From contig NC_037595.1 in assembly GCF_003073045.1 (NCBI RefSeq), positions 6,436,227 to 6,500,226 of the forward strand: a stretch of DNA of 64,000 nucleotides. Reading direction: 5' to 3'. The notes under the pieces are model-generated. The model was not told the origin of the DNA. It was given only the letters and a program-made list of their open reading frames with translations, and did not search any database. Shown here piece after piece: positions 14,941 to 51,200 of the stretch. This stretch comes from Pomacea canaliculata (lineage: Eukaryota > Mollusca > Gastropoda > Architaenioglossa > Ampullariidae). Both the position numbers and the translations under genes were made by a program. How positions within the stretch are numbered: position 1 is the first letter of the stretch; every line of letters starts with the position of its first letter.

Positions 14941-17900
14941 ATGGCTCAGGCTCAGACTGCTGGAAATCAAGCGTTACCACCAGAGGTAATGTGCCTTAAT
15001 TTTACTTGATTGAAGTTTATTTTGCTGTCACATCAAGCATATTGATATTTTATTAGGTCAGTGGACTTGTAACAACTTTTGATGCGGTAATGATAAGTAA
15101 TCAGACCAATGTCAAACTAATTGATCCATCCTCAGTTACGCGACGTTAAAAAAAAAACTGATTAAAAAAGGTTTTTTTTTCTTTGGAACGACATGATGTG
15201 TTTAAAAAATTTTTTGGATCTGTCTTAGCCAATATCTGTTATTTTTTAACTTGAATTTTACACCAACCATTTTACATTTTTCGTTAGCACAAAATACAAT
15301 CTAGACTAGACTGAAGTAGAAGAGTGAATAGATAAACAGCTCTGGTACACATTTCGTTTCCACAGTAGTATTTAAAAATAGGATTGTGCTGCCCAAAATA
15401 TGCTGTTCTCTTTGATTTTTCATCATTTGTTTCAAAGTAAAAGGACGACCAACTTCAGGCATATTAAAAAATCTCTAGATTGCAACCAATTTATTTCTTT
15501 ACCTACCAAACGTCCCATCTCTTGAGAAATTCTGTTTCACACATTGCAGCTCAAAATCACAAGCCACCCTATTTTCACTTCAGTCTACCATTAAAAAGAT
15601 AACTGCCAGCATCTAAGATTTAAGTACTTACAACCTGCTTTTATATTGGACTGTTGCCATCCAGCAAGGTGCTTTAAACAGTGATTGAATAAATTTTGGG
15701 TAGATAGTATAAGTTTTTTACATGAAGACACACTGAAGTGGATGGGAGATCTGGGATATTGAGCAGCTCTCTGTCTCGATTCCTTCTCTAGCTGTCCACA
15801 CACAATTGTTGTATATTGTCATAATTGTTATTTTTACAGGAAGTTGGGTACATTGCTGACAAGATTGTGAAAGCAGAAAAAAGAATCAAGGCATATCCCT
15901 ATGACACAGAAGCATGGAGTATTCTCATCAGAGATGCACAGGTGAAAAACATTTTCAAGTTTACTTCATTATCATTGTTTTTCACACAAAAAATAAGGAC
16001 TACTGGCATTAGTAGTAAAGTTCTCATAGCTACACTACATTTAAATTAAAAATCCTTTCCAACCAATTAACAAATTGAATCTAAATGACGACTTGCTGAA
16101 TTGTTTATGCTGGAAATTTTAAGTTTCAGGAAAACCATTTACTTAGTCTTTAGAGTACAGGCATTCTGGAATTGAGATTGTCTTAAAAATTTTCAGCCAG
16201 AACTGGTGTGATGATAAGGTTACAAACAATTGTATGAAGTTTCAGTGTGGCAGCTGCATGATCTGATAATGGCAATCTGTGCATGGAAGATTAAAAAAGA
16301 ATGTCATTACAAAACTGAGTGAACTTCTTTCTTTGTCACTTGCATTAAGATTGGTGGAACTGAAAGAATTTTTCAGATTCTTGCACATAAACAAACTTGT
16401 GCCCTGCATGCACTCTACTTTCATCATAGGATGCAACTAAGATTGCAAGCTATAAATATGGCTATACTGGCGAATCATCAAATGCTGTTAACAATACACT
16501 CAACGATACTTTTGTCAAAAAGTCGTACTATGTCTCAAATTAGGATCAGTTTGTTTTCTTTCATAAGAGTATTCAAAAATGAAGACCTTTGTGAACCATC
16601 CTGGAGCTGTTTCTTTAGAAATTGTTCAGAAACAATTCTTTTGCAGCCCAAAATCACAAGCAGAAAGTCAGTCTCCATCATTAAAGCCCAGCTTGCTAGT
16701 TCCCTTGCCGTTTCCTGTAAGGAGACTTTACCATGCTATGAGTGTTTCTGAGGAAAATTTTAAGTTTCAAAAATTTCATCATGATTATATGATTTTTATG
16801 CACATGGCTGTGGTTTAAATGTGAATTTCACATAAGAAAATGTGGCTGAAGTAAGTTACTTGATTGTTAACAAACAGGACATCATTTTACTACAGTTGCA
16901 GTCAATATTGTATGTTTTGTTTAGTGAGTGTGATGAAGCTGGCAGATATACCAGAAGTGTTTGTTTAAAGTAGGAATCTCTTTTCTTTTTAAGAGTCTCC
17001 GAAGGTAGGTTTAGACTAGAGGTTTTAACTTTAACTTAAAGCCTGTTTATGTACATTATTAACTGCTAAATATGTCTTGTTCCAGATGCGGAAAATTGAG
17101 GAGGCTCGGCCTATATATGAACGTCTAGTGGAGCAGTTTCCAAGTGCAGGCAAATATTGGAAGATTTATATTGAGCAAGAGGTTAATATTCTTTTTTTTA
17201 TACCACACCTTGCACTTTCTTTTATGCTTCTGTTGAAGCTGGATCTTGAAGAAATCGAAGTGAAATCAAAACAGAAATTTAAGTCCCTGGATTTGGAATT
17301 TTCTATGAAAATTTTGTTTAATGTATGATTAGATAATAAATAGTGCTTTGCAGCTGTTCAGAGCATGAATATGGGTTTAACGCTTACAATTTGTGAGGGT
17401 AGATCAAGCATATGGATGGGCGCAGTAGAAATAGAGTAAAAATATTTGATGTGAATAACAAATTGTAAAATTGGAAGTAGCAGTATTTCCCACTGTCTGA
17501 TTGTCAGGAGCATTTCTGTTAAGGTCTTTCTAGCCAGAGCATATAAGAATGTGCACATGTGGTTTGTGATGTTAAGTATAGAATTAGATCTTAAGCCTCT
17601 TTTTTTTTTTTTTTTTTTTTGGTTATATCTATGTTTTAATGTAGTTACATTGAATTCACTTTGTTCTCTTCTTTTATCAAACGATAAAGAAGTTTACCTC
17701 TGCCGGTGTTGACTTTTTCCTGCGTTTCTAGGGAAACTTGGGTTGGATGGTGTTGACTTTTTAGGTAGGGAGTTAGTGGGGTGGACATGTCATCTAACAT
17801 CACTGTGCATACCCTACCTTACATGTGTACAAGACCCTTTTGTAGTCAGAGCTGCATATGCATGGTATGTACCCACAGTAAATAAAAGTTTTTAAGGATT

Positions 17901-20900
17901 TGTTTTAAACAGTGTTTGAGTTCTAGGTTTTTTGGTTGGTGCTTAATATAGAAGTGACAATTATTTCACATTGTTCAAAAATAAAATATTGGCCATTAGT
18001 GTTACCTAGGTTTGTATATGTTGTATATATTGCAATAATAATATTGAAACTTGGGAATTATTATAGGAATAAAAATCCTTTGCAAGTTTTCCTTAATTAA
18101 AAAGCTAAATCTTATGCTCTCCCATTATTTTTTTATTTTTTTTTTATATCCAAATTAATCTTAGCCTTAATATTGGGCTTAAATAACATACAGTAAGAGC
18201 TGGGTCGCTCAACAGTAATGTAATTATTCCTGGTAGTTGTCTGTAATATGCCTCAGTACCTATAAAACAAAATCATTATGCAGTTAGTATTCAAATTGCC
18301 AAGAGTAGACTTTTAAACACAGTTGTTTATAACAGACTATGTTGGCCCAAGTGTGGTTGAGTGTATATGTCCATTGTATGTATGCAGATATGTTGGTAAT
18401 ATAAGTTTTATTCTTTAATAAGAAAGAAGTTTTTTAACTTGATGGTAATGCTGATCCACTAATTTTTTTAACAATTTGACACATCAGTGACGAGAAAAAT
18501 ATTTTTAAATAAAATGCTTATGGAGTTTGACAAATGCTGAAAGCTTTTATAAAATTTTGTCTTCATTTTTGAAATTTTGTTTGATTCATAAAAGGGTAAT
18601 TTGAGGAGAAATGAATTGAATGGAAGTGCGGGGGGGGGGGGGGGGGGGGGGGGTGGTATAATGTGACTTGAACAGTTCTGGTAATTTTAATTTCATATAT
18701 TAGACTGCATGTTAATGGTGAGTTGTGTGGTTTGTCTTGGACTATGTTTCTTTGGTGATTTAAACTGGGAAAACTATATTAAAATGTGAATTAATAAAAC
18801 TTCTTCCAGGTTACTGTGTTTCAAAACGCACATAATATGTGTTTCTTATGTGTGTAAAACATTTTGAGGCAGGAGTTCATTTTTATCATCACTTTTTCTT
18901 TTTTGGACATGATATTCTAAGTATATTTTTATCTTTATCTTTAAATAAGTTATTTGACTTTAGCAGAATTTTTGAAGTTTATTTTTAGTGACAGTATTTC
19001 CTTTCTCAGTGGTCCTTCCAGTCCAGGTACAGTATTATATGTCAAATGTGATATTTTATACTTTGTTTGGTTATTTATTATTTCAAAAATTCAGTATACA
19101 TATTTTTGAGGTAATGTGATTCTGAACAAAATGCCTCAAAATAAATGTTTGAACAGGCTCCTGTGGGTGCTTTATCTGTTTTTCTTAGGTGAATGCACAT
19201 TTTAAGCTTTGTGTTTGGTTTACACCATTGGGGGTGACTGCATATGTGTGCACAGATGTTTGTGCTGCTTGTTTGTTACTGTGTGTGCAATGTGACATTC
19301 ACGGCTGCTAAAAATGGTGGGAGAGAGTGTATGCATGTTGTTGAGAGTGATAAACACTTACCTTCCATACAACAGGCTTTGAAACAAATTAGTATGTATG
19401 CACAACCACACAGGCAACAGCTCTTTGTATTGAAGATACAATTTCTCTCCCTTGATACTCGTTTTCTTCCCTTGCTCTTGTGTCATTTACACATGCTAAA
19501 CTGCTAGCACTCAAATCATATGCATTATCATATGTCAAGTTTTTGACTATTTTAAGTCATATTTCTACCAAATTAGGGTGTATGCTTCACAAAACACTCT
19601 GTGCCCTGCCATTTTCAGTCCCAGTCTTTCTGACATTAAATGCACTACACCTTAGCAAAGTATGCTACAAATTCAAGCAAAAATATTATGCACAAACCCA
19701 ATGTGCACATTTTATTCATAGAACAAGCTTAGTTAAATAACTGCTGAAAATTTCAGAAGGTTCTGCATGAAAGCTTGAGCTTTTTTCTTTTGAAAGATGT
19801 TTGAAACAGATTCTTATGTTTAACATCATTCTTGAACTGTTCAACACACCAGTCCAGGCTATTTACTGCATAATGTTGACTAAAGGTTGCATGACGATTA
19901 TAGTTGATGACAAGTGATCTCTATCTTAACCAGATTGTTGCTTGCTTCATTATTGACGGTATGTGCCTATTGTGTCCTATGAACACATGACGTCGGGTGC
20001 CATAGACTTCTTTTCAGACTGATTCTTTCCTGCTAATGTAACGTAGAAGTGTATTGTGGTCCAAGGATTTATCCCTAAATGAGGAGTAACGTGAAGGTTT
20101 GTTTTCTCTGCATCTTGCTTGAAGTCCAACAGCACATGCCAGTGTGGCTCCATATTGCACACCTGTGTCAGTGACCTTTGTTGGAATAGGACATGGTTGT
20201 GGTTGAGGGATCTTTTCCACAGCCAAACAGGAGACATGTTTGTATGAGAGGCAGACCAAAGTGTTGCTCATTCCTGGTGTCCACTGGCAGTTGGGTTACA
20301 TGCTATTTGCCATAGATACAGTTTCTGTTAAAATTTTCTATTTTAAGAGATAAAATAAGATTTGATTTCAAGTATACATTTCTTGTGACATTAGAAGATG
20401 GTCTAGGTGCATCTGTCATATTTCTGGATGCATTTTTTCTTCTTCTTTGGATTTGTTCAATAGAATTATTTGTAGTTTCCTTGTGTTGGACACACATTCA
20501 GTATTTTGAAGTGATGAAAACTTGGTTGCTAGTTTGCTGGGGGATTTTTTGTTGGTAATTTCTGATTTTGGTCATATGTGATAAAGGTACAATCACTCAC
20601 TTGAGATAGTACATTTATTAGTTTCAGTCATAATGATCTCAGACATTTCTTTCTTCTATGAAGGGAACTGCTACAGTTACATTTTATTTTCCAGCTATAG
20701 CAGTTGAATGTAAGAATTGAATCATATTAATCATCACATTGTCAGGAGACTTGTCAAGTGCACAGATCCCATGAAAAAAGTTCAAGGCATCATTAACACT
20801 AATCATAAATTACAATGGACTTGTCACTGAAACATTTCTATAAGGAAGAAAATGGCACAGATTTTCTAAACTGAAACTGGTGTAACAGCACTTTTACTTA

Positions 20901-23900
20901 TAACAAATTATAAGTTTTGTCGATTAACAACTTGAATTCTTTCCACTGCTTTGGTGCCTTAGCTTGGTTGTAGAAGACTTATACTGTATCTAGGAAATGT
21001 TTCACAGTTGTCCTTGAGCAAAGGCTTAATTTATTCATGTGTTATGCAGGGAATATTTTGGATTACATTATTGACTTGACATTTCCACCATGTCAAAGTA
21101 GCATCATGGAGTGGTACAAGTGTTTCTTTGATTTAAAAATAATTAGTTTTGTGTCACTGTGGTTAGTAGGAGTAGCATTGAAGGGTAGCATTTTGTTTAA
21201 TTAAGGTGTCTTGTTTTTGTTGGTCTAGACATTTTGGCTTTTCTGGAAACTTTCAACAACATTTATAGGGCAGAGTAGGGATGAGATTAAGGAGGAAGAT
21301 TTATGGCATTTACAGTTTGGTTCAGAACCAACAGTTCTGGCAAAATTTAGGCACCAGTATTTTGCTTCGAAGGAGGAACATAGTTCTATCTCCCAAATGT
21401 TTCACAGGCTTACTTTAGTGGCTTCATTCTGTCAAGGTCCAAATGCTTTAACGGGCTGTTCAGTGGCACAACAACAGTTAGCTCTTGTCACCAATACAGT
21501 CTGTTCTCCTGTGGTTTCAGATCTTGTTTTGGGCATGCTCTTTCTCTGCATGTGGCATCTGTTTACAGAGCTGGCTGCTTTGCCATGATAGAGCCTTAGT
21601 TGCTGGCCCCCAGATGTTTAAATTTTGGGATGGTGAAGGAGGTTATTACAAGTCTCATATAAAGGATCTGATCATCAGTAGGTGTTAGATTAATTTTTGG
21701 GGTAGAAATGACCTGAAAACTGAAGTATAGACTTATGTGATAGGTGCATTTAACTTTTTAGAAGATGGTACATTTTTCCCATTTACATTTGTTATGGATT
21801 GTATTATTCTATAAACTACAAATGTGTGCCTTGGCTTCAGTAATTAAAATTTTTTATAGATTGCAGTTTGGCTTACGCAGTTTTGTGTGCATTATGACAT
21901 TTAAATGCTAGATCTTATTCAAAGGCATCAGCATTTGTGTCCTTTTTTAAGTAATCAGCTATCATCTAATAGGAATACACAATGCTGGATCATCATCACA
22001 AACATATTTTTAGGGCCTGTGTTTCAATTACTGCTTACAAGAGGATCCATGTTTATAGAATATGCAACGCTTAAAACAAAAAGTACAGTTATGCTTGACA
22101 TCTTCAGAGAAGACTTTCACAGAGATGAAGTCTTTCGTAAATTAGTCTGGAAGTTCTGTGTTCCTTTTTCTAAAATGAGCAGGAACATTCCTTGCTATCT
22201 GTTCAATTTTAAAAACCAGAATGTTACAAGTGAAAAGTAGGCTGCACATGAGCTTCACATTAAGCCATATTTACAAGAAGGTGGGAATGAAATTTAGCAG
22301 CAATTTCTCAAAATCCCTACATGCAAAAAAAAAAAATCACCCGTAGTCATGTCATGCATAGTTTCTTTTTTTTTTATTTACAAGGATGCTCCTTAGTACA
22401 AATAAATTTCTTGTCTGTCTACATCACTAAAAAAGAATAAAAATCATATCTAAACAAAATATCATTCACTGTGATTAATCTGAATGCAAAATTATTTTCA
22501 TAAACAGTTGATTACAATGTATTCTCAAAATTAAATGGAAAAATATTCACATTCGTGAGATGCAGGCCTTCGAACATTGTTGGTCTTAACTGGGGCTTGG
22601 ACAGAGGTCACAACCTCATATGCAGGCACATCAGATTATCAGCTTGCTGATTGGGCTACACTGGATTAGAATGTGCTTGAACTTCTCATATTGGCTACAG
22701 CCTTCAGTGATGTCAGAAATATGAATTAAGGTCAATCCTAAGGTATCTTTCTTACGAAAAAAAAAGTAAATCTTCATGACACATCTGTGTATGTATGTTC
22801 TATGAACTAGCAACTTCATGTTTGACTCAGCCTAGGGCATTTAATAAGCATAACATGTTAAAACAAATGAGAGACACAAAAGTGTGTGCATCTTTGACAC
22901 AAATACTTGAGCAATCCTATGTATGGAAGCATGTATACAGATACACATGAACTTACACATATTTTGGAAATAATAAACCTTTTAAAAGCATTTAGAATTT
23001 TTAATATTTGTACTAGTATGAAAGAAATTGTCCCAAATATTGTCATTAAAAGTTGTGTTGGCATTCCATTAGGATTTTCCTGTTCCTGAAAACAAATTAC
23101 TTGTTCACTGGAATAATCTGACTAGTCTGTGTTGTTTCATTTATCTATAAACCTGAATTGTTGTGATATGGATTTGATGCCTGTCTAATACACTATGCCT
23201 TACACAATATTGCGCGTGCCTAAATGCCCACAAAACCTAGTTGAGTGAAGAGCCTTTTGTAAAAAAATTTGAAAAGTGTTGTCAGTGTTTTCCATATGAA
23301 ATAAACCTTTTTTCAACACCGAAAGTTTGTTTCTATGATAGCATTGTCTTTGCGCACGTAAAATAAAATACCTGCACATAATTCTCATTTCCACCACCAT
23401 TTAATAAAAATAACATTTTAATTTTCTTTGGTAGTTGTCTTAGTTTCACTTTGTTTTACATCATTAAATTTCTCAAAGTGGATTTGATAGTTCCAGAAAA
23501 TAGCAAATGGTTATGTAACATATGTCAGACTCTCTCAAACTCTTGAATTCTCTGGTAGTGGCTTTTTAAATGTTTTAAACATTTTTTTGAACTGTTGTCA
23601 TGCATTTGACCTATTGTTTGAGTAATAAAGTCTTTGGTTCATTGCTACAAGTTATTTTTGCCTGGTCAGGCTTCAGAGGGTTCTTGTTCTTCTGGAACAT
23701 CACTCTTTTATTTTCCTCTCTTTCCACTCCATCTCTATCATTGCTATCCTCTCTCAAAGAGAGAGAAATTTAATACTTGGAATTTCTTGTTCATCTCCTG
23801 ACTAAATATGGTATTTTGACTATACATATTTGAGCAAACTGTAAAGAGTTAAAACAGCATTTACCACAACATTAATATTTCTTAAGCCTAGAATAATGTT

Positions 23901-26900
23901 CAGTCTGTTTTTATATTGAGGATTTCCATCACCTGAAAGCATATACAATTCACTTAAGAGAGTTCAAATCCTGTAGAAAGAGGACCAAGGGGTTCTGAAA
24001 ATGTAAATGATTTGGCAGTAGGGGCTGAAAAGATTTTAAAAGTTTAAGCCAGAGCTTTACTGGGTAAAGTATTTCATAATATACCAAACTTAAAACCTGA
24101 ACTTTTGCCATAACTCGTTATCAAATATTGCTTACCTTTACATGCATAAAAACATGACACTAATTACTTTCCTTTAGATTCTTGTCATCAGGAATCAAGA
24201 TAACATTGTCATATGGATTGGTGTGTACTTTTTTCCTGTAACTGGTCGATAAAACTCATGTTCATGGGGACAAGAATGAGGGGCTTTTAAAACCCTCGAG
24301 AATTCTTAATAGGGATCTGAAAACCACTAACATTTTATGGATGATAAAAACTGTATTTAAACTAATGATTATTAATGTATTCACAAAAACGTTCTAACTG
24401 TTTGAACTTTCTCTAAAAAGCTTTGTTTAAGCACAAAATCCCTGTGTGAGTTTAATTACTCCATTTTGTCTGTAACCAAGTTACTTTTCTTGGCATGCAG
24501 AATTTGTATTCACATCATAATCTTTGTATTTTTGTGATGAAAAGGGTTCTGTTCTCACTGAAGAATAAATGAATCTTGAATCCCATTCCATTTTATATTT
24601 GTTTCATTTTTGTCTGTTTGATTTTGCTTGTAATAAGTTGTGTGTTTTGTCTTGTTCTACTCGGTTTTTTTTCCTCCCCTACCTCCCTTTCTGTCTTGCT
24701 TGTTTACAGTCTTTCAGACTCCTCCTTTCTGAGGTTTTTTCTCTAGGCCTTATGCTCTCCGTCTGTAACTGCTTGTGTGTATGGTTGATGCATTTCACAG
24801 ATAAATGAATGCATGAAAACAAACATGCTAGTGCAAAGTACATTTCTTCAAACATGCTTTTGCTGCCTTCTATTATTCACAGATAAAAAAAAAATCAAAC
24901 ATCTTAAAAATATAGTTTGAATCACAGTCCTGCAATGTTGAGCATTTTGCTCACTCAAATGATTGCCTCTTCATTATAATAACAATCTAGAGTTATTCTC
25001 AATGGTGTGTGTGAGGGAACTCACTGGTGTGAAGTTGCAATCTTGTTGGTGTCCATTATGAGGGGGGAAAAAAATTTTATAGGAAATTTATTGTTTAAAA
25101 TTATGCAGAAATATAAGCAAACTTCATTAATACTTGTTTCTTATTTCAGCTGAAGGCAAAAAACTTTGAAAGAGTAGAAAAGGTGAGATACTTTTTTAAA
25201 ATGTTTGGTTAGCAACTCCCTTTTCGACATTTTCACATATAAGTGATTGCTATTGTTAAAGCCCATTAAATGTCTTGGTCTGTAAAGTAGCAATGCATCT
25301 GCGACATATCTTTTTGGCTAACTTTCCTGAAGTGCCCCATGTTTAGCACATGGCCAAATGAGGCTGTTCTGGGATAGTTTTAAAAAGGTGAGGACGAAAG
25401 AAACTTTTGGAGTTTCAAACCGAGAGACATACAGGCAAAGTGCAACAAATCTCTTAACAACAATACAGAAAATGAAGTTTTATAAGATGTGGAAAAAAAA
25501 GATCAAAAAAGCGTTTTTACAAATTAATTTCAGGATGTAATCTTGATGACATTCGAAGAAATGCTGGAACACCTTAGCATTGCTAAGTCCTTTCCATTTT
25601 AAAGTTCTCATTAGTGAAATATTTTCTTGCAAGACAAGTTTTTTTATGTAACAGCTTATTGAACTGCTTACACAAACTAATCAAACGAGTTAAAGGTAAA
25701 GTTCCACACGAATTGTTCCTGCAGTACTGGTGTTCATGAAACAAACTTGATCATCATTCTTGTCATGGACAGCTCTTCCAGAGATGTCTTATCAAGGTGC
25801 TAAACATAGATCTATGGAAGCTGTACCTCAGCTATATCAAGGAAACCAAAGGCAGCTTACCATCATACAGAGAGAAGATGGCTCAAGCATATGATTTTGC
25901 ACTGGAGAAGATCGGAATGGACATAATGTCCTACCAGATCTGGGTTGATTATATCAATTTTCTAAAGTCTGTGTAAGTGCAAACATTTGTTAATTATAAC
26001 TTCTGATCTAAAAAGTACAACAACAAATGTCATATTTACATCTGATTGCTCCAAATAGATTGGTACAAGTACTTTGGACCTGCAGCCGTGTTCAGAAATG
26101 GTATTGAAGTCTAAAGCCTAAGACTTACCTAGTAAAAAAAAAAAATCCCCTTGCTGGGGTTTAAAGCAGGTCTTTTGCTTGTTCCTGCTTTCTATTTGTT
26201 AATCATGCACCTTGGAAGAATTCTGTTAAATGTCAGTAGTATCAAGGAAATTTAGGTCAAAGGAATTTTATCCAAGTATCCAACGTTGCAGGTAGGCCAT
26301 TATATAACTGTATCTCATGTACTGAATATTACAGGGAGGCTGTTGGAACATACGCAGAAAATCAGCGGATCACAGCAGTGCGAAAAGTTTACCAAAGAGG
26401 AGTGGTTAATCCTATGATCCACATTGAAATCTTGTGGAAAGATTACTGTGCCTATGAAAATGTAAGTGCTGTGATAACTGAATTCTAGCCATTTGAAGTA
26501 TTATGTATTAATGCCTTCTATTTAAGACATTAAAATCACTGCAAATAATTGAATAATATCAGTTTTAATTCAAAAAGTGTGAAAACTAATAGTAATTTAT
26601 AGTGAAGGAGTAACATCAAAATTTAGGAAATATTGGAATATGTTCACTGTCGAGCATAAATATCACTCAAATAAAGATGCCATTGTTGAGCATGCAATAT
26701 ATCTCGGGAAGTATAAGGAAAATGTTTTGGAAGTATGAGCAGCTTTAAACCTAAAGTAACAGGAAAATCTTATTGATATAGAAGCGCAAAAAAGAAAACA
26801 TGTTCAGTGTCCTGATGCACTTCATTAATCAATTAAATCAACAAAATAAATTTAAAATATAAATATGGAAATATATAAATAATATAAGTAATAATAATTC

Positions 26901-41426: not shown

Positions 41427-44400
41427 CTAGGGCCGCAGGGCAGTTCTCAAGAGGTTCTTTTTCTCAGGTGTCAGTGTTCTTGGGAATGCAATATCAAACT
41501 CAATAATGAGGTCGCCTTTCTGCTGTGGGTCAGATGACAGGGGCATGCCTTCATCACGTACAATCTTTTTGTAGCCAGGTCTGCAAACAATGAATTTAAT
41601 GTACTTTTAACATGAGGGGAAAAGTCTGAAGTAGTGCCTATCTCACAAGGATGGTACCGATACAATCTTGTGGTGATGACGATGATAATGATAAAGCAGT
41701 TATATAATGCATTTTCTGCTTGGTATTAACTTCAGTTTGCTTGAGCATATTACAGATAAAAAGCACCCCAGACTTTTGTAAATCATAGGGTGCAAAGCAC
41801 AACAAAAGGCAACACCACTCCTCTATCACCACCACTTCTGCTTCTGGTTACACTCACTTGATGATGTCGTTGATAGGTATGTGCAAGATACGATCATCCA
41901 GTGTTGTGATGTCCACAGTGTACTGGGTCAAAGCGCGACCAAGCGGAACATGTGCCATAAAGATAAGGTTTGTGCCCTCTCTTCGGAAACGAGGGTGTGG
42001 TTTATCCTTCACAATGAATACTATGTCCGCTGTCAGAAGGATAGAAGACATTAATTTAGTGATCTCAGAAAAGTCAATATTACTTCAAGAGGATGAGGTT
42101 CTCATTAAAACAGTCTTTAAAGGAACAGTCAATTATGAAATCATGATCACCTTGATGGCATTACTATTATGCCACAAATAAATTTCCTATTGGAGTATCT
42201 CAACTAATTTATTGGTGGCTGTGAACAAATTTCAACATTTTGAAATCAAAGCCAGAAGGTAAGCAAAATTAATTATTTCTTGATTAACTCTTCCTCTAGA
42301 TGTATTTAATTGGTAGCTAAAGTCAATAGTTAGGCACGTCGTCCAATTACAGCGAGCATTTACATAACTCACTTTTTAAGTTTTGAATAAGAGCTATCAT
42401 TATTCTTCCAAAAATTTTTTTTTTTTAAATCCACCAGCAAAAGTGGCTGGTGCTACCTGGTATGTTGTTAGGACCCTGGTCACCCTCTTTGGGAAAAGTG
42501 ATCTTGGTCCCAGGTCTCCAGCCTTTCTTGACGGTGATGGTCAGGATCTTGTCCCGGATGCTGGATGTGTGACCATCCTCATTCATTACCTGGAAGCAAG
42601 TATGATTGCTCTCATTTGTGGATATCAAGCTAGGATTGTCAATTTAAACTTTTGCATAAGCAAGCTAACATTTTCTTGCAATGATATATATATTTTACTG
42701 TATGCACATATCTATTTCAACTGTTTTCAAACTTGAGGAAGAAAAAACAATCTAAAGCACAAACTACACTTTTTGTATACTACACAAACAAGGCTTTTAT
42801 GTCAGATCATGTAAAAACAAACTATTTAAAACATGATTATGACTCAACAGGGTCCATTTATAAAAGTTCACAGCACAGAGTGGAATGATTCATACCCTAC
42901 GAGAGATCTTCATCTTTTTTGTGCACCCATGATAAACCTCCTCCAAAGAAAGAAAGAGGTCTCGTTCAATGGGTGTGTCTTGCTTCTTGGCACCACGTCC
43001 AGCCAGCCCACCAAACCCCATGCTGAGGTCACCGTCCACTCGGTCATAAAATTCTGCAATGGCAAGAAATGCAGCATCCAATGTAAAAATACTCATAATG
43101 AGTGTTTTAATGGAAAGATGATGTTGTGGATGCTGGTATAGCAAAAAAAGTATCACATACGTTATCTTTTAATGCAAAAAGAAAGCAGCCAGATTTATTT
43201 AGGGAGATCACTGTACTGACAATTTTACGCTTACCACTTATTCTTTTCACATTCACTACATTATGGGATATTTCTTCAAATTTTCCAACATATCGGAAAT
43301 ATTATTAAAGTGAGAAAAAGATATTTTATTTAATTTTTCAGCACAATGTACACGTAATCCTACAGCTCTGCTTTTTTTTGTTTTTTTTAATTTATTTTTC
43401 TTTTCCTAGTTACCTTGGAATGGGTTGTCACCACCAAAAAAATCACGAAAAACTTGTTCTGCATCACCATGGAAAGTATAGCCCTGAGTCCAAGCTCCAG
43501 CTTCCATGCATCCATGAGGAACCCCATTTTTCAAGCCTTCCTCTCCAAACTGGTCATAAACAGCACGCTTCTTTGCTGAAAATAAGTACACATACATTTC
43601 TAATGAGTGCAGCTCTTGGCTTTATTAATATACACCTTGACAATCATTTAAGTAGAGATTAAGTAATTTCATTTTATTTTATATTTGTGTGTTAATTCTG
43701 TTATTTATTAGCCTTGGCTCATCTACAATATACCCAACAGATCTGAGCATGTATTAATTCTTCATTCATCTTCAGCTTTTATGATTTAAATAACTTTTGC
43801 AAGTAACATTTGATTATGCATGACACAAAATTTTTCCCCCATTTCCCTTCGCAACTACTTATTGTAGTTTCTAGAGCTAGAAAATTCAATATTTCTCTGA
43901 TTATAACAAGTAAACTACACTGCTGGAATATTCTCCATGGAAATATGAAGAAACTTATCCTCCAATAATACCTTGCAAAATTCCACCAGTGTAACTGACT
44001 ATGTATCATTTCTTCAATCACCAGCTTTAAATTACAACTGTCTGCTAGTTGAAAGAACTTACGGTCAGACAACACATCATAAGCTTCTGCCACCTGCAAA
44101 AATTTGTCTGCAGCTGCTTGGTTGCCATCATTTTTGTCTGGATGATATTTCAAGGAAAGTTTTCTATAACTGTTAAAAGAAAATTTCAAGAGTTATACAT
44201 ACCATGTTCCTTGCAGCAACATTTCTTTCACACTCCCGACCCCCAAAGCAAAATCTTGCATAAAATAGAAAAGAAAACCTAGAAAATTTAATAAATCTGG
44301 GATCCATATTATTACAAGTTTTGTGTCTATGAAAATAGTTCTCCCGATTACCAAACATGTCAACTTTAAATAGCATGGAGATTTTGCCATTACTTTACTG

Positions 44401-48200: not shown

Positions 48201-51200
48201 TCGCAAACACACACATACACACAAATACACATGTAACTGCTTTTTTGACATCAGTTGTTTCTCTTTTTTCAATACTGAAGTTATGACACACATAAGAAGG
48301 TACCCTATCGTTTTGTACATGCAGGTGGAGTTTGTTACCAAAATACCTGGAAAGCTTGAGGAAACTCTAATTGTAGAAATGGAGGGTGTGGAACCAAAGG
48401 AACTGACTATTCATGGCAATGTGTGCAACCCACTGATAGAGATCTTGTCACTGAAGGATGAGCAGCCTATAAAGTGCATTTCTTTTGGCAATACATACTA
48501 TGGAACAGACTGCACAGAGTGCGCACTTCTATTCAACAACAGTCCTGCTACACTTAGCTTTGTGGCAATGATTGATGAAAGTGCACCAGGCCAGGAGATG
48601 GTGAATACTTTGTGGTGCTAATTACCTGTTTATTCATCCATGCACCCATCTCCCCATACAACCAGTCCATCACTCTGTTAGCCAGAAATTAATTCTTTGC
48701 AGCTCATTAAAATTTGTATGAAAACCACACCTACTTGGTGGATAAGCAAGAAACTCTGAGCCATAAGAAAAGAGTAGAAAGGGTTTTTTTTTTGCTCAAA
48801 TGATGATTTACTTAATGGCTATTTCTTTGTATTTGCATAACACCTTACTGATAAAAATACACGTGTGTGTGCCTACTAGGGTATTGACATGACCTCGACA
48901 ACAACAGGAGCTCTTGCAGAAGAAGATGGTTACAATAGTAGGCATGGAAGTATCAATGCTCTCACCTCTCTGATCACAACAATTCCAAACCAGGGAGTCC
49001 TTCAGCCATACCAGAAAATACCCATCTTCTTCCGCTTTAGCCCAAGGTAGGAACAGTTCATTATATTTAACTTAGAATCTCTTATTTGAGGAGAGACTGT
49101 CAGTCATTAAATACTAAGATGGTTTGTCCTATAAGTTATTTTAGGAGTATGTCTCCCTGTTCTATACATTGACATCTTTAGTAAGTTTAGTTCTATTTGT
49201 GCCACGGGTAGTCAACAATATGAGAGGACTATTCATATGCCAGCTTGCCAAACAGTGCTGTCGACCAATCACACTTGTGCTAGTGCATAAATCTGCTTCT
49301 TCTACATTTTTGTGGCTTGAAACTTTGTAAAGACAATGGACAGGTGTTTTTAATATGGGAAATAGCATTTAAAATTAATCAGTGAAGATTGAAAATAGGC
49401 AAGCAATAATATTGACCAAACTATGCATTTTTACACTTTGGATTCAAAAACACTTTCTTATGCTTTTTCAGATGGAATAAAGCACAGGTTGGCTGGAAAA
49501 GCAAGGTCATACCCCCACCTCGAAAAGATTTTGCTCTTTTTGTCCGCTTTGAGATGTCGGGATCTAGTAAAGGCTTCTCAGAGATCACAGTGGTAAAGAA
49601 GAAAGGTCATTTCAGCACCACTGGTATGGCTACAATGTTTTTGTATTCTTTGCTGTGAAAATTGACATCCATTGACATGCAAATGCAATTGAACCTTGGG
49701 CCTGATTTCTAAAGTTCTCTTTATCTGGAAGAATTGGAAATTACATTAATGAGTAATTCATTCATTAGTCTACTTTAAAATGGCCATGGCACTACTGATT
49801 GTTAATATGCTTGAAGGAATGTTCACATTGAAAAAGACACAGAAATCAAACTACAGAAAGTAGTATGAATTTTAAAGGCATGTGAGAAATATTTGGAACA
49901 AGAGAAGGTATAAATAGCAAAACAAACATTGTAGCAATGTATTATCCTTATATCATTGTACCTTAATTATCATGTGAGGTATGGTATAATACTGTTTTTG
50001 TTTATATTATTTCCTAATAACCTATACTTTATATGCTTTGCCATCCATTTTAAACTTAATGACAGACACTTTGTTTTGCCTTCCTCCCATCTAGGAAAGT
50101 TTGCAGAGGTTGCACTCACTGCTACAGCACTGCCAGTTCTTCTGGACATCTCACCATCTGACAGCTTGGACTTTGGCGAGTGTCCTGTTGGGGAATCTGT
50201 AGACACTTTGTGCACCATCCGCAATGAGTCATTTCTGTTGCCAGCTATATTCCAGTTCCGCCGCATAGCCCATTTCTCTGCAAGGCCCCTGAATGGGAAA
50301 ATTTCTCCAGGACAGACTCAGGATGTGGTCTTTTCTTTTGTACCAAAACAAGTTGGTCAGTATAAGTTTAAGCAACAGTTTGTGTATGATTCAGTGTTGT
50401 TTAATTGTACAAAATGTAGAATTTAAAAGTGGGGGAAAATTTTTTTTTTGCCTGGCAGTTTGTCCAGTTAAAACTTCTCACCACCACAGTTCTAAATGTT
50501 GAAAGAATTAATTTAGTTTATCTACAAATCAGCATCCCACTGTTGAGTTACAGTCATGTCTTCATTCCTATTTCAAGGGAAGATAAGTGTTCCTGCTCAC
50601 CCTTACATTATGGATTAATGACTGATTCTATCTCCTCCAACTACATGATGGATTGTAAACATAACAAGTCTGGCTGTATAAGGGCAAACAGAACCCTACT
50701 AATGTTTGTCTGCTTGTGCTGAAAGCTCACTTTTCAAAAGGTTCATCAAACCTATTATAGAAAGGGTAAGGTTCAGTCTATAAGTGCACTGCTGTCATTG
50801 ATTAAGACATTTAGAAACAAGACCCAAAGAATTAGATCTAGCCAGACTAGTTCAGTGGTTTGGAATGCAAATAGCCCAGCAACTAGGTCAAAGGGTATTG
50901 GATGTAGGTCAGGTGTGGTCTGGGGCTAGGAGGTCACAATGCTTGAGTAGGAGGTAATTCTGTAGACAAACATCAAGTACAAAAAATAGGAAAGCCAGCT
51001 CAGTTCAGACTGTGACAGAGTTAGCCCACTATATACATCTCTAGAAATATATAGTGTCCTGCTCTCTGCTATTAGAGATGTTGATGGCTAAGATATAGCA
51101 TTTATTGAAAATACTATTAACTTAACAGAACTGCTTTGTTGTGCCACAGTCTGAGGAAATGCAGTCCTAAAGCTGGAAATATTTTTCAGGTGTTTTTGAT

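Follow-up and report, generated by a model that had tools for sequence, protein, structure and literature searches.

Intron 3 of vertebrate CSTF3 (CstF-77) reportedly carries a polyadenylation (poly(A)) site, a description ascribed to Pan in 2006. Here we compare this system with the CSTF3 gene of the snail Pomacea canaliculata, which is located on the + strand of a 64,000-nucleotide (nt) stretch of DNA (NCBI RefSeq assembly GCF_003073045.1, contig NC_037595.1, positions 6,436,227 to 6,500,226). This stretch is called the window below, and its own numbering is used throughout. Judged by its sequence, intron 3 of the snail gene would be an attenuator of the vertebrate kind with a probability of roughly 0.55. 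The gene, the position of the intron in the protein, the weakness of its donor, its length, the stop in the read-through frame and the layout of the poly(A) signal are read directly from the DNA. From these features and the likeness to vertebrates we infer use of the snail site, a response of its usage to the CstF-77 level and common descent with the vertebrate switch.

In Luo 2013 (PMC3708835), the CSTF3 intron 3 switch is described as conserved in vertebrates, and conservation of the sizes of introns 1 and 2 is reported as well. With a reporter in human cells, early polyadenylation rose with a longer intron or a weaker donor and fell about tenfold upon loss of the GU-rich element, while weakening of the acceptor had a minor effect only. 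More CstF-77 resulted in more of the short isoform in human cells, as did a block of U1. In this isoform the coding sequence from the 5' splice site (5'SS) to the stop forms a composite exon. Human isoform 2 comprises 103 amino acids (aa) and isoform 3, in which intron 2 is retained, 44 aa. The products of the intronic isoforms were undetectable, and a reporter tagged with the human intronic coding stretch gave no signal (Luo 2013, PMC3708835). For su(f) of the fly, the same source describes no sequence or gene structure in common with vertebrates and argues for convergence; the fly short isoform has no in-frame stop. In C. elegans, no such switch was found (Luo 2013, PMC3708835). A related principle is known from another gene, PCF11, a 3'-end factor that is likewise self-limited by early polyadenylation through premature termination, according to PMC7471841. 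In a literature search that covered few subscription journals, we found no report, among the matches listed and the text passages covered, of an intronic CSTF3 site beyond vertebrates and fly, and no paper joining a mollusc with alternative and intronic polyadenylation.

The features of the snail gene to which we refer are the following:

14941-14985 (+): coding part of CSTF3 exon 1, read by eye; continues in frame into exons 2 and 3 on translation
15840-15941 (+): CSTF3 exon 2, from tblastn and spliced alignment, with its start set from the acceptor read
15942-17085 (+): CSTF3 intron 2, 1,144 nt, donor CAG|GTGAAA, before human N44, from spliced alignment
17086-17181 (+): CSTF3 exon 3, human residues 44-75, from the PDB 6uro_E match, tblastn and spliced alignment
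17179-17187 (+): weak intron 3 donor GAG|GTTAAT, from weight-matrix and U1 duplex energy ranks
17182-25149 (+): CSTF3 intron 3, 7,968 nt, phase 0, from spliced alignment
17182-17328 (+): read-through frame, 48 codons then TGA (17326-17328), from the sequence
17192-17199 (+): 8-T run from nt 11 of intron 3 on; putative TIA-1-type helper site by its presumed role
17335-17340 (+): first AATAAA, 6 nt past the stop, in ordinary surroundings (1 TGTA, G/T fraction 0.60)
17712-17731 (+): acceptor-like site by acceptor score; a hidden terminal exon would start at 17732
17826-17871 (+): three TGTA (CFI-type) elements 5' of the main hexamer, from the sequence
17881-17886 (+): AATAAA, the leading candidate for a poly(A) signal, 699 nt inside intron 3, from the sequence and flank ranks
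17900-17911 (+): predicted cleavage region (ttgttttaaaCA), placed by spacing
17912-17942 (+): GT-rich downstream element, GTGTTTG through GGTTTTTTGGTTGGTGC, from the sequence
25130-25149 (+): intron 3 acceptor of average strength (65th from weakest of 106)
25150-25182 (+): CSTF3 exon 4, 33 nt, in frame, from spliced alignment

The gene was identified by tblastn and by a spliced protein-to-genome alignment with human CSTF3, which was run without a preference for strong donors. The human query had been checked against PDB entry 6uro_E (717 of 717 positions aligned, one residue differing), and exon 3 matches residues 46-75 of human CSTF3 in this entry with an E value of 9.4e-9. The spliced alignment begins at human residue 9 and leaves exon 1 outside; exon 1 was read by eye, and exons 1, 2 and 3 join in frame when translated. 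With 19 introns in the alignment and intron 1 (854 nt) added by eye, the total is approximate. Eight intron rows of the CSTF3 alignment have a weak flank, and some are mis-set in the poorly conserved 3' half. Intron 3 is a phase 0 intron between the residues aligned to human E75 and I76. Its 7,968 nt make up 43.9% of the ATG-to-stop span, and the second-longest intron of the gene in the spliced alignment, intron 2, has 1,144 nt. This bears out an earlier note on this DNA, which had called intron 3 several times longer than any other CSTF3 intron. An alternative donor for intron 3 was dropped on inspection, since the join between E75 and I76 is fixed by the protein alignment from both sides. 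Exon 4, directly after the giant intron, has only 33 nt and is in frame; it could slow the splicing of intron 3 further.

To rank the donor, human VCP, EEF2, ATP1A1 and ATP2A2 were aligned to snail loci. Together with CSTF3 they gave 139 aligned introns, and the 106 with good protein flanks on both sides, from 8 genes, form the background. This background is small and uneven, four of the genes being ATP1A copies, and some kept low-scoring rows may be alignment errors, e.g. a 5,582-nt row of ATP1A_b. Left out were 32 introns whose protein flanks were weak and one whose flank, at the very start of an ATP1A copy, was too short. Eight of the 32 belong to CSTF3, including intron 2, and the set did not include CSTF3 intron 1 at any stage. 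Several of the rows left out are misalignments in regions of poor conservation; others resemble genuine introns.

The donor consensus of the 106 snail introns is the usual MAG|GTRAGT, with G at +5 in 97 of them. In a leave-one-out weight matrix, GAG|GTTAAT of intron 3 is the third weakest donor of the 106, and it is the fourth weakest by U1 duplex energy (-4.2), with the U1 sequence and the energy method taken from Luo 2013 (PMC3708835). With a matrix from the other 105 introns, one of these scores lower. T at +3 is found in the intron 3 donor and one other, and no other donor of the 106 lacks the +3 purine and the +5 G at once. Thus, the weak donor at 17182 postulated by the earlier note is confirmed by both measures. 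Intron 3 is also the longest intron of the background (median 378.5 nt). Scored against 105 introns, the donors of introns 1 (GAG|GTAATG) and 2 (CAG|GTGAAA) are found at the 3.8th and 9.5th percentile, respectively. All of the first three CSTF3 donors (14983-14991, 15939-15947 and 17179-17187) are without G at +5; splicing may be set to run slowly over the entire 5' end of the gene. The T-run downstream of the intron 3 donor is rare as well: runs of at least 8 T within +7 to +26 are present in two of the 106 introns, and a T count in +7 to +21 as high as here in five, intron 3 included in both cases. According to PMC9311317, TIA-1 binds U-rich stretches 3' of weak donors and recruits U1 via U1-C. 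A TIA-1-type role is therefore conceivable for the U-run after the intron 3 donor.

Beyond the donor, 48 codons are open (17182-17325), and the in-frame stop precedes both AATAAA considered in intron 3. The length of this frame carries little weight by itself, because at least 49 codons, one more than the actual 48, were reached with P = 0.041 in 5,000 simulations; at P of about 0.04 the open frame was rejected as strong evidence. The predicted short product would have 129 residues, 81 from CSTF3 and 48 from the tail, and the first 19 residues of the tail are hydrophobic (Kyte-Doolittle mean 1.85). After E75, human isoform 2 is taken to depart from the main frame into the tail VTILFYFFLYQYCSIHCSDRKQVRNIAN of 28 aa (75 + 28 = 103). 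If this tail is correct, the snail read-through starts alike and the human donor is likewise without G at +5, which we treat as a lead and not as a test. The snail tail of 48 residues is longer than the human one, whose 28 residues follow by subtraction from the 103 aa if E75 ends exon 3. The letters of the human tail and donor were also sought in the literature, where the matching papers were unrelated by title and abstract.

A bare AATAAA is unremarkable. It was present in 59% of 300 Markov-simulated 1-kb stretches of the same composition, and its mere presence was rejected as strong evidence. The earlier note had correctly placed one AATAAA (17335) six bases behind the TGA that ends the 48 codons. 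This hexamer was rejected as the main site, since its flank is ordinary. The second AATAAA named there, at 17881 and followed by a GT-rich element, proved unusual in a comparison set of 441 AATAAA in 367,604 strand-bases. Its G/T fraction from +10 to +60 is 0.76, the highest of the 441, and its best 20-nt G/T window is equalled or bettered by five, itself counted, although these downstream measures were devised after the site had been seen and the ranks are optimistic. At least three TGTA within the preceding 60 nt are found at four of the 441, the site at 17881 among them. In seven further loci (46,608 strand-bases), none of 65 AATAAA reaches a G/T fraction of 0.76 and one reaches 0.70 with a TGTA. 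A downstream element as good as that at 17881 occurred in none of the 300 simulated kilobases, and none of the six hexamers in the 2.5 kb past the CSTF3 stop codon has a flank as G/T-rich (best 0.56).

Both properties were then combined, with a graded signal defined as AATAAA or ATTAAA with a G/T fraction of at least 0.62 and one TGTA, and a weak donor as a score of at most 3.3. Among the 106 introns, seven have a graded signal, nine a weak donor and three both; of these three, only CSTF3 intron 3 exceeds 2 kb. A 6.5-kb SERCA intron contains graded signals but has a strong donor.

Compared with the vertebrate switch, the snail locus has the same gene and, by protein alignment, the same intron, after the equivalent of human E75. 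The positions of the snail introns agree with how long the human isoforms are (103 aa and 44 aa), intron 2 after residue 43 fitting the latter. In both cases the intron is long (43% of the human gene region, 43.9% of the snail ATG-to-stop span) and the donor very weak: among all human introns it falls at the 0.7th percentile, and one of 105 is lower in the snail. The order of elements, UGUA, hexamer, U-rich and GU-rich, is also shared (Luo 2013, PMC3708835, for human), as is an in-frame read-through stop before the poly(A) site, in the snail the TGA at 17326-17328. Snail intron 3 has the inputs of the competition between splicing and cleavage seen in human cells.

The proposed mechanism would be as follows. 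U1 snRNP would bind the GAG|GTTAAT donor poorly, perhaps aided by a TIA-1-type protein on the adjacent U-run, and therefore splicing across the 8-kb intron would be slow. Meanwhile, the CstF/CPSF/CFI machinery could act at the AATAAA at 17881, some 0.7 kb from the donor, where the putative signal offers UGUA three times, AAUAAA, a U-rich stretch and GUGUUU/GU-rich sequence in this order. With abundant CstF-77, this site would win and the transcript would end at about 17911 in a composite terminal exon. The short mRNA would encode only the first 81 residues and the 48-residue tail with its hydrophobic start, a product that is probably degraded. With scarce CstF-77, splicing would win and full-length protein would be made.

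Several observations, in addition to the optimistic ranks of the downstream measures, weigh against such an attenuator. The snail acceptor is average (65th of 106), whereas the human one is at the 94.3th percentile. Intron 1 has 854 nt in the snail and is very large in human, and with 1,144 nt for intron 2 the vertebrate pattern of a large intron 1 and a small intron 2 is not found. Instead of the suboptimal AUUAAA of vertebrates the snail has AATAAA, so that its site might be too strong for a sensor (vertebrate properties from Luo 2013, PMC3708835). Two further downstream measures are less distinctive: 48 of the 441 AATAAA have as good a TGT/GTG count (four at 17881), and 62 match YGTGTTYY as well (7 of 8 positions), the site itself counted in both. 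Finally, a weak donor together with a graded signal is also seen in two introns of VCP (813 and 194 nt), so this pairing alone is not unique. The earlier note had claimed a conserved intron 3 switch of the vertebrate type. Of this, the gene, the intron and its position fitting the human isoform lengths, the weak donor, the length, the stop and a convincing arrangement at 17881 stand; the AATAAA by the stop is no functional candidate, and the strong acceptor and large intron 1 of vertebrates were not found.

The alternatives overlap in part, one having the mechanism in common with the attenuator but a different descent, and their odds do not sum to one. It is somewhat unlikely that intron 3 is an ordinary long intron, with a donor weak by drift, a length from insertions and, at 17881, an AATAAA with a GT-rich flank that resembles a signal but stays silent, either held down by U1 or passed over by transcription. 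AATAAA and ATTAAA occur about twice per kb of strand, and with 22 of them on the sense strand of intron 3 one good site is not very unexpected; a dispersed repeat at about 21451-21611 demonstrates that insertions add to the length, and others may be hidden. However, the site with the top G/T fraction of 441 lies in the first 0.7 kb of the very intron that vertebrate work had named beforehand, and this intron is also the longest of the 106, with the third weakest donor among them. In addition, strong cryptic sites near weak donors would be expected to be selected against. Still less probable is an attenuator that arose in the snail lineage independently of vertebrates. Such convergence would agree with the differences in acceptor strength, intron 1 size and hexamer type, and with Luo 2013 (PMC3708835), where the fly and vertebrate switches are judged convergent and none was found in C. 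elegans; against it, the protein alignment places the snail intron where the vertebrate one lies, and in both the donor ranks among the weakest. The fly differs in this regard. Drosophila su(f) shares the gene family and the proposed outcome with the snail gene, but its intron/exon structure, including adjacent gene structures, is unlike that of vertebrates, whereas the snail has the vertebrate intron, and the fly short isoform lacks the in-frame stop that the snail has at 17326. Because Luo 2013 finds no common sequence or gene structure, su(f), which the earlier note had named beside the vertebrate switch, cannot serve as support for common descent.

Two readings that accept polyadenylation at 17881 are very unlikely in our view. 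In one, the site would be used via a hidden (skipped) terminal exon, with exon 3 spliced to 17732 in place of a composite exon. Of the 424 AG sites of intron 3 that were scored, the acceptor-like site at 17712-17731 ranks fifth, at the 58th percentile of true acceptors, and the true acceptor tenth; the hidden exon would begin 149 nt 5' of the main hexamer. Yet four other AG sites in the intron score better, the weak intron 3 donor would still be needed, and the human short isoform has a composite exon (Luo 2013, PMC3708835). The other reading, to which we give equally little weight, is premature polyadenylation for another purpose, i.e. tissue-specific down-regulation or a working truncated protein, with no CstF-77 feedback. 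The open frame of 129 residues (81 + 48) would allow such a protein, but the hydrophobic 19-mer (mean 1.85) at the start of the tail would be expected to destabilise it, and no product of the human intronic isoforms was detectable (Luo 2013, PMC3708835).

Further observations concern the surroundings. In the genome, no match elsewhere was found for 17000-17900 and 17700-19400 with a search that skips very common words; the poly(A) site thus is not in a detected dispersed repeat. The repeat deep in intron 3 (about 21451-21611, approximately 150 bp) is SINE-like in length and spread, occurring in at least 39 other places on 15 of 24 contigs with 78-85% identity among the matches listed. Beyond 19400 other repeats may be hidden. 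On the sense strand, T and G are markedly enriched in the first 2.3 kb of intron 3 (17182-19500; AT skew -0.15, GC skew +0.20), and introns 1 and 2 are without such skew; as a trace of early termination, strand skew gave nothing clear. The 194-nt VCP intron (at human residue 128) has the weakest donor of the set, TGG|GTACAG. Its read-through frame stops after two codons, and its AATAAA at +41 is accompanied by two TGTA and a GT-rich flank of 0.72; it is possibly an intronic poly(A) site, or an alignment error. Rfam gave no match across the window at gathering thresholds. Contig C24 of the same genome is the mitochondrial one (15,707 bp); COX1 stands at its start, and the genes, named from their translations, follow on one strand in the order cox1-cox2-atp6-...-nad1-nad6-cob-nad4L-nad4-nad5-cox3-nad3-nad2, which is usual for caenogastropods. 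A search for relatives of CSTF3 exon 5 resulted in 15 pattern stretches in viral_contigs and 50 in genome_contigs, none of them confirmed. In ten open frames scanned with Pfam, the neighbours in the window include a frame with a HYDIN/CFAP65-like Ig domain (49935-50423, +) and one with a DnaJ domain (43779-44192, -).

Taken together, the sequence makes it likely that snail intron 3 is a new case of the vertebrate-type CSTF3 switch. That molluscs and vertebrates inherited the attenuator from their last common ancestor we propose only tentatively, at somewhat less than even odds; the switch may be far older than vertebrates and predate the protostome-deuterostome split. With a mollusc that shows the intron of vertebrates, a donor of comparable weakness and the arrangement of the poly(A) signal, an origin before this split becomes a concrete and testable idea. 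If the switch were ancestral, the fly version would have been relocated or rebuilt and its lack in C. elegans would be a loss. It would then be among the oldest known self-regulating poly(A) sites, with a donor whose weakness was maintained over a very long period as a means of sensing the capacity for 3'-end processing.

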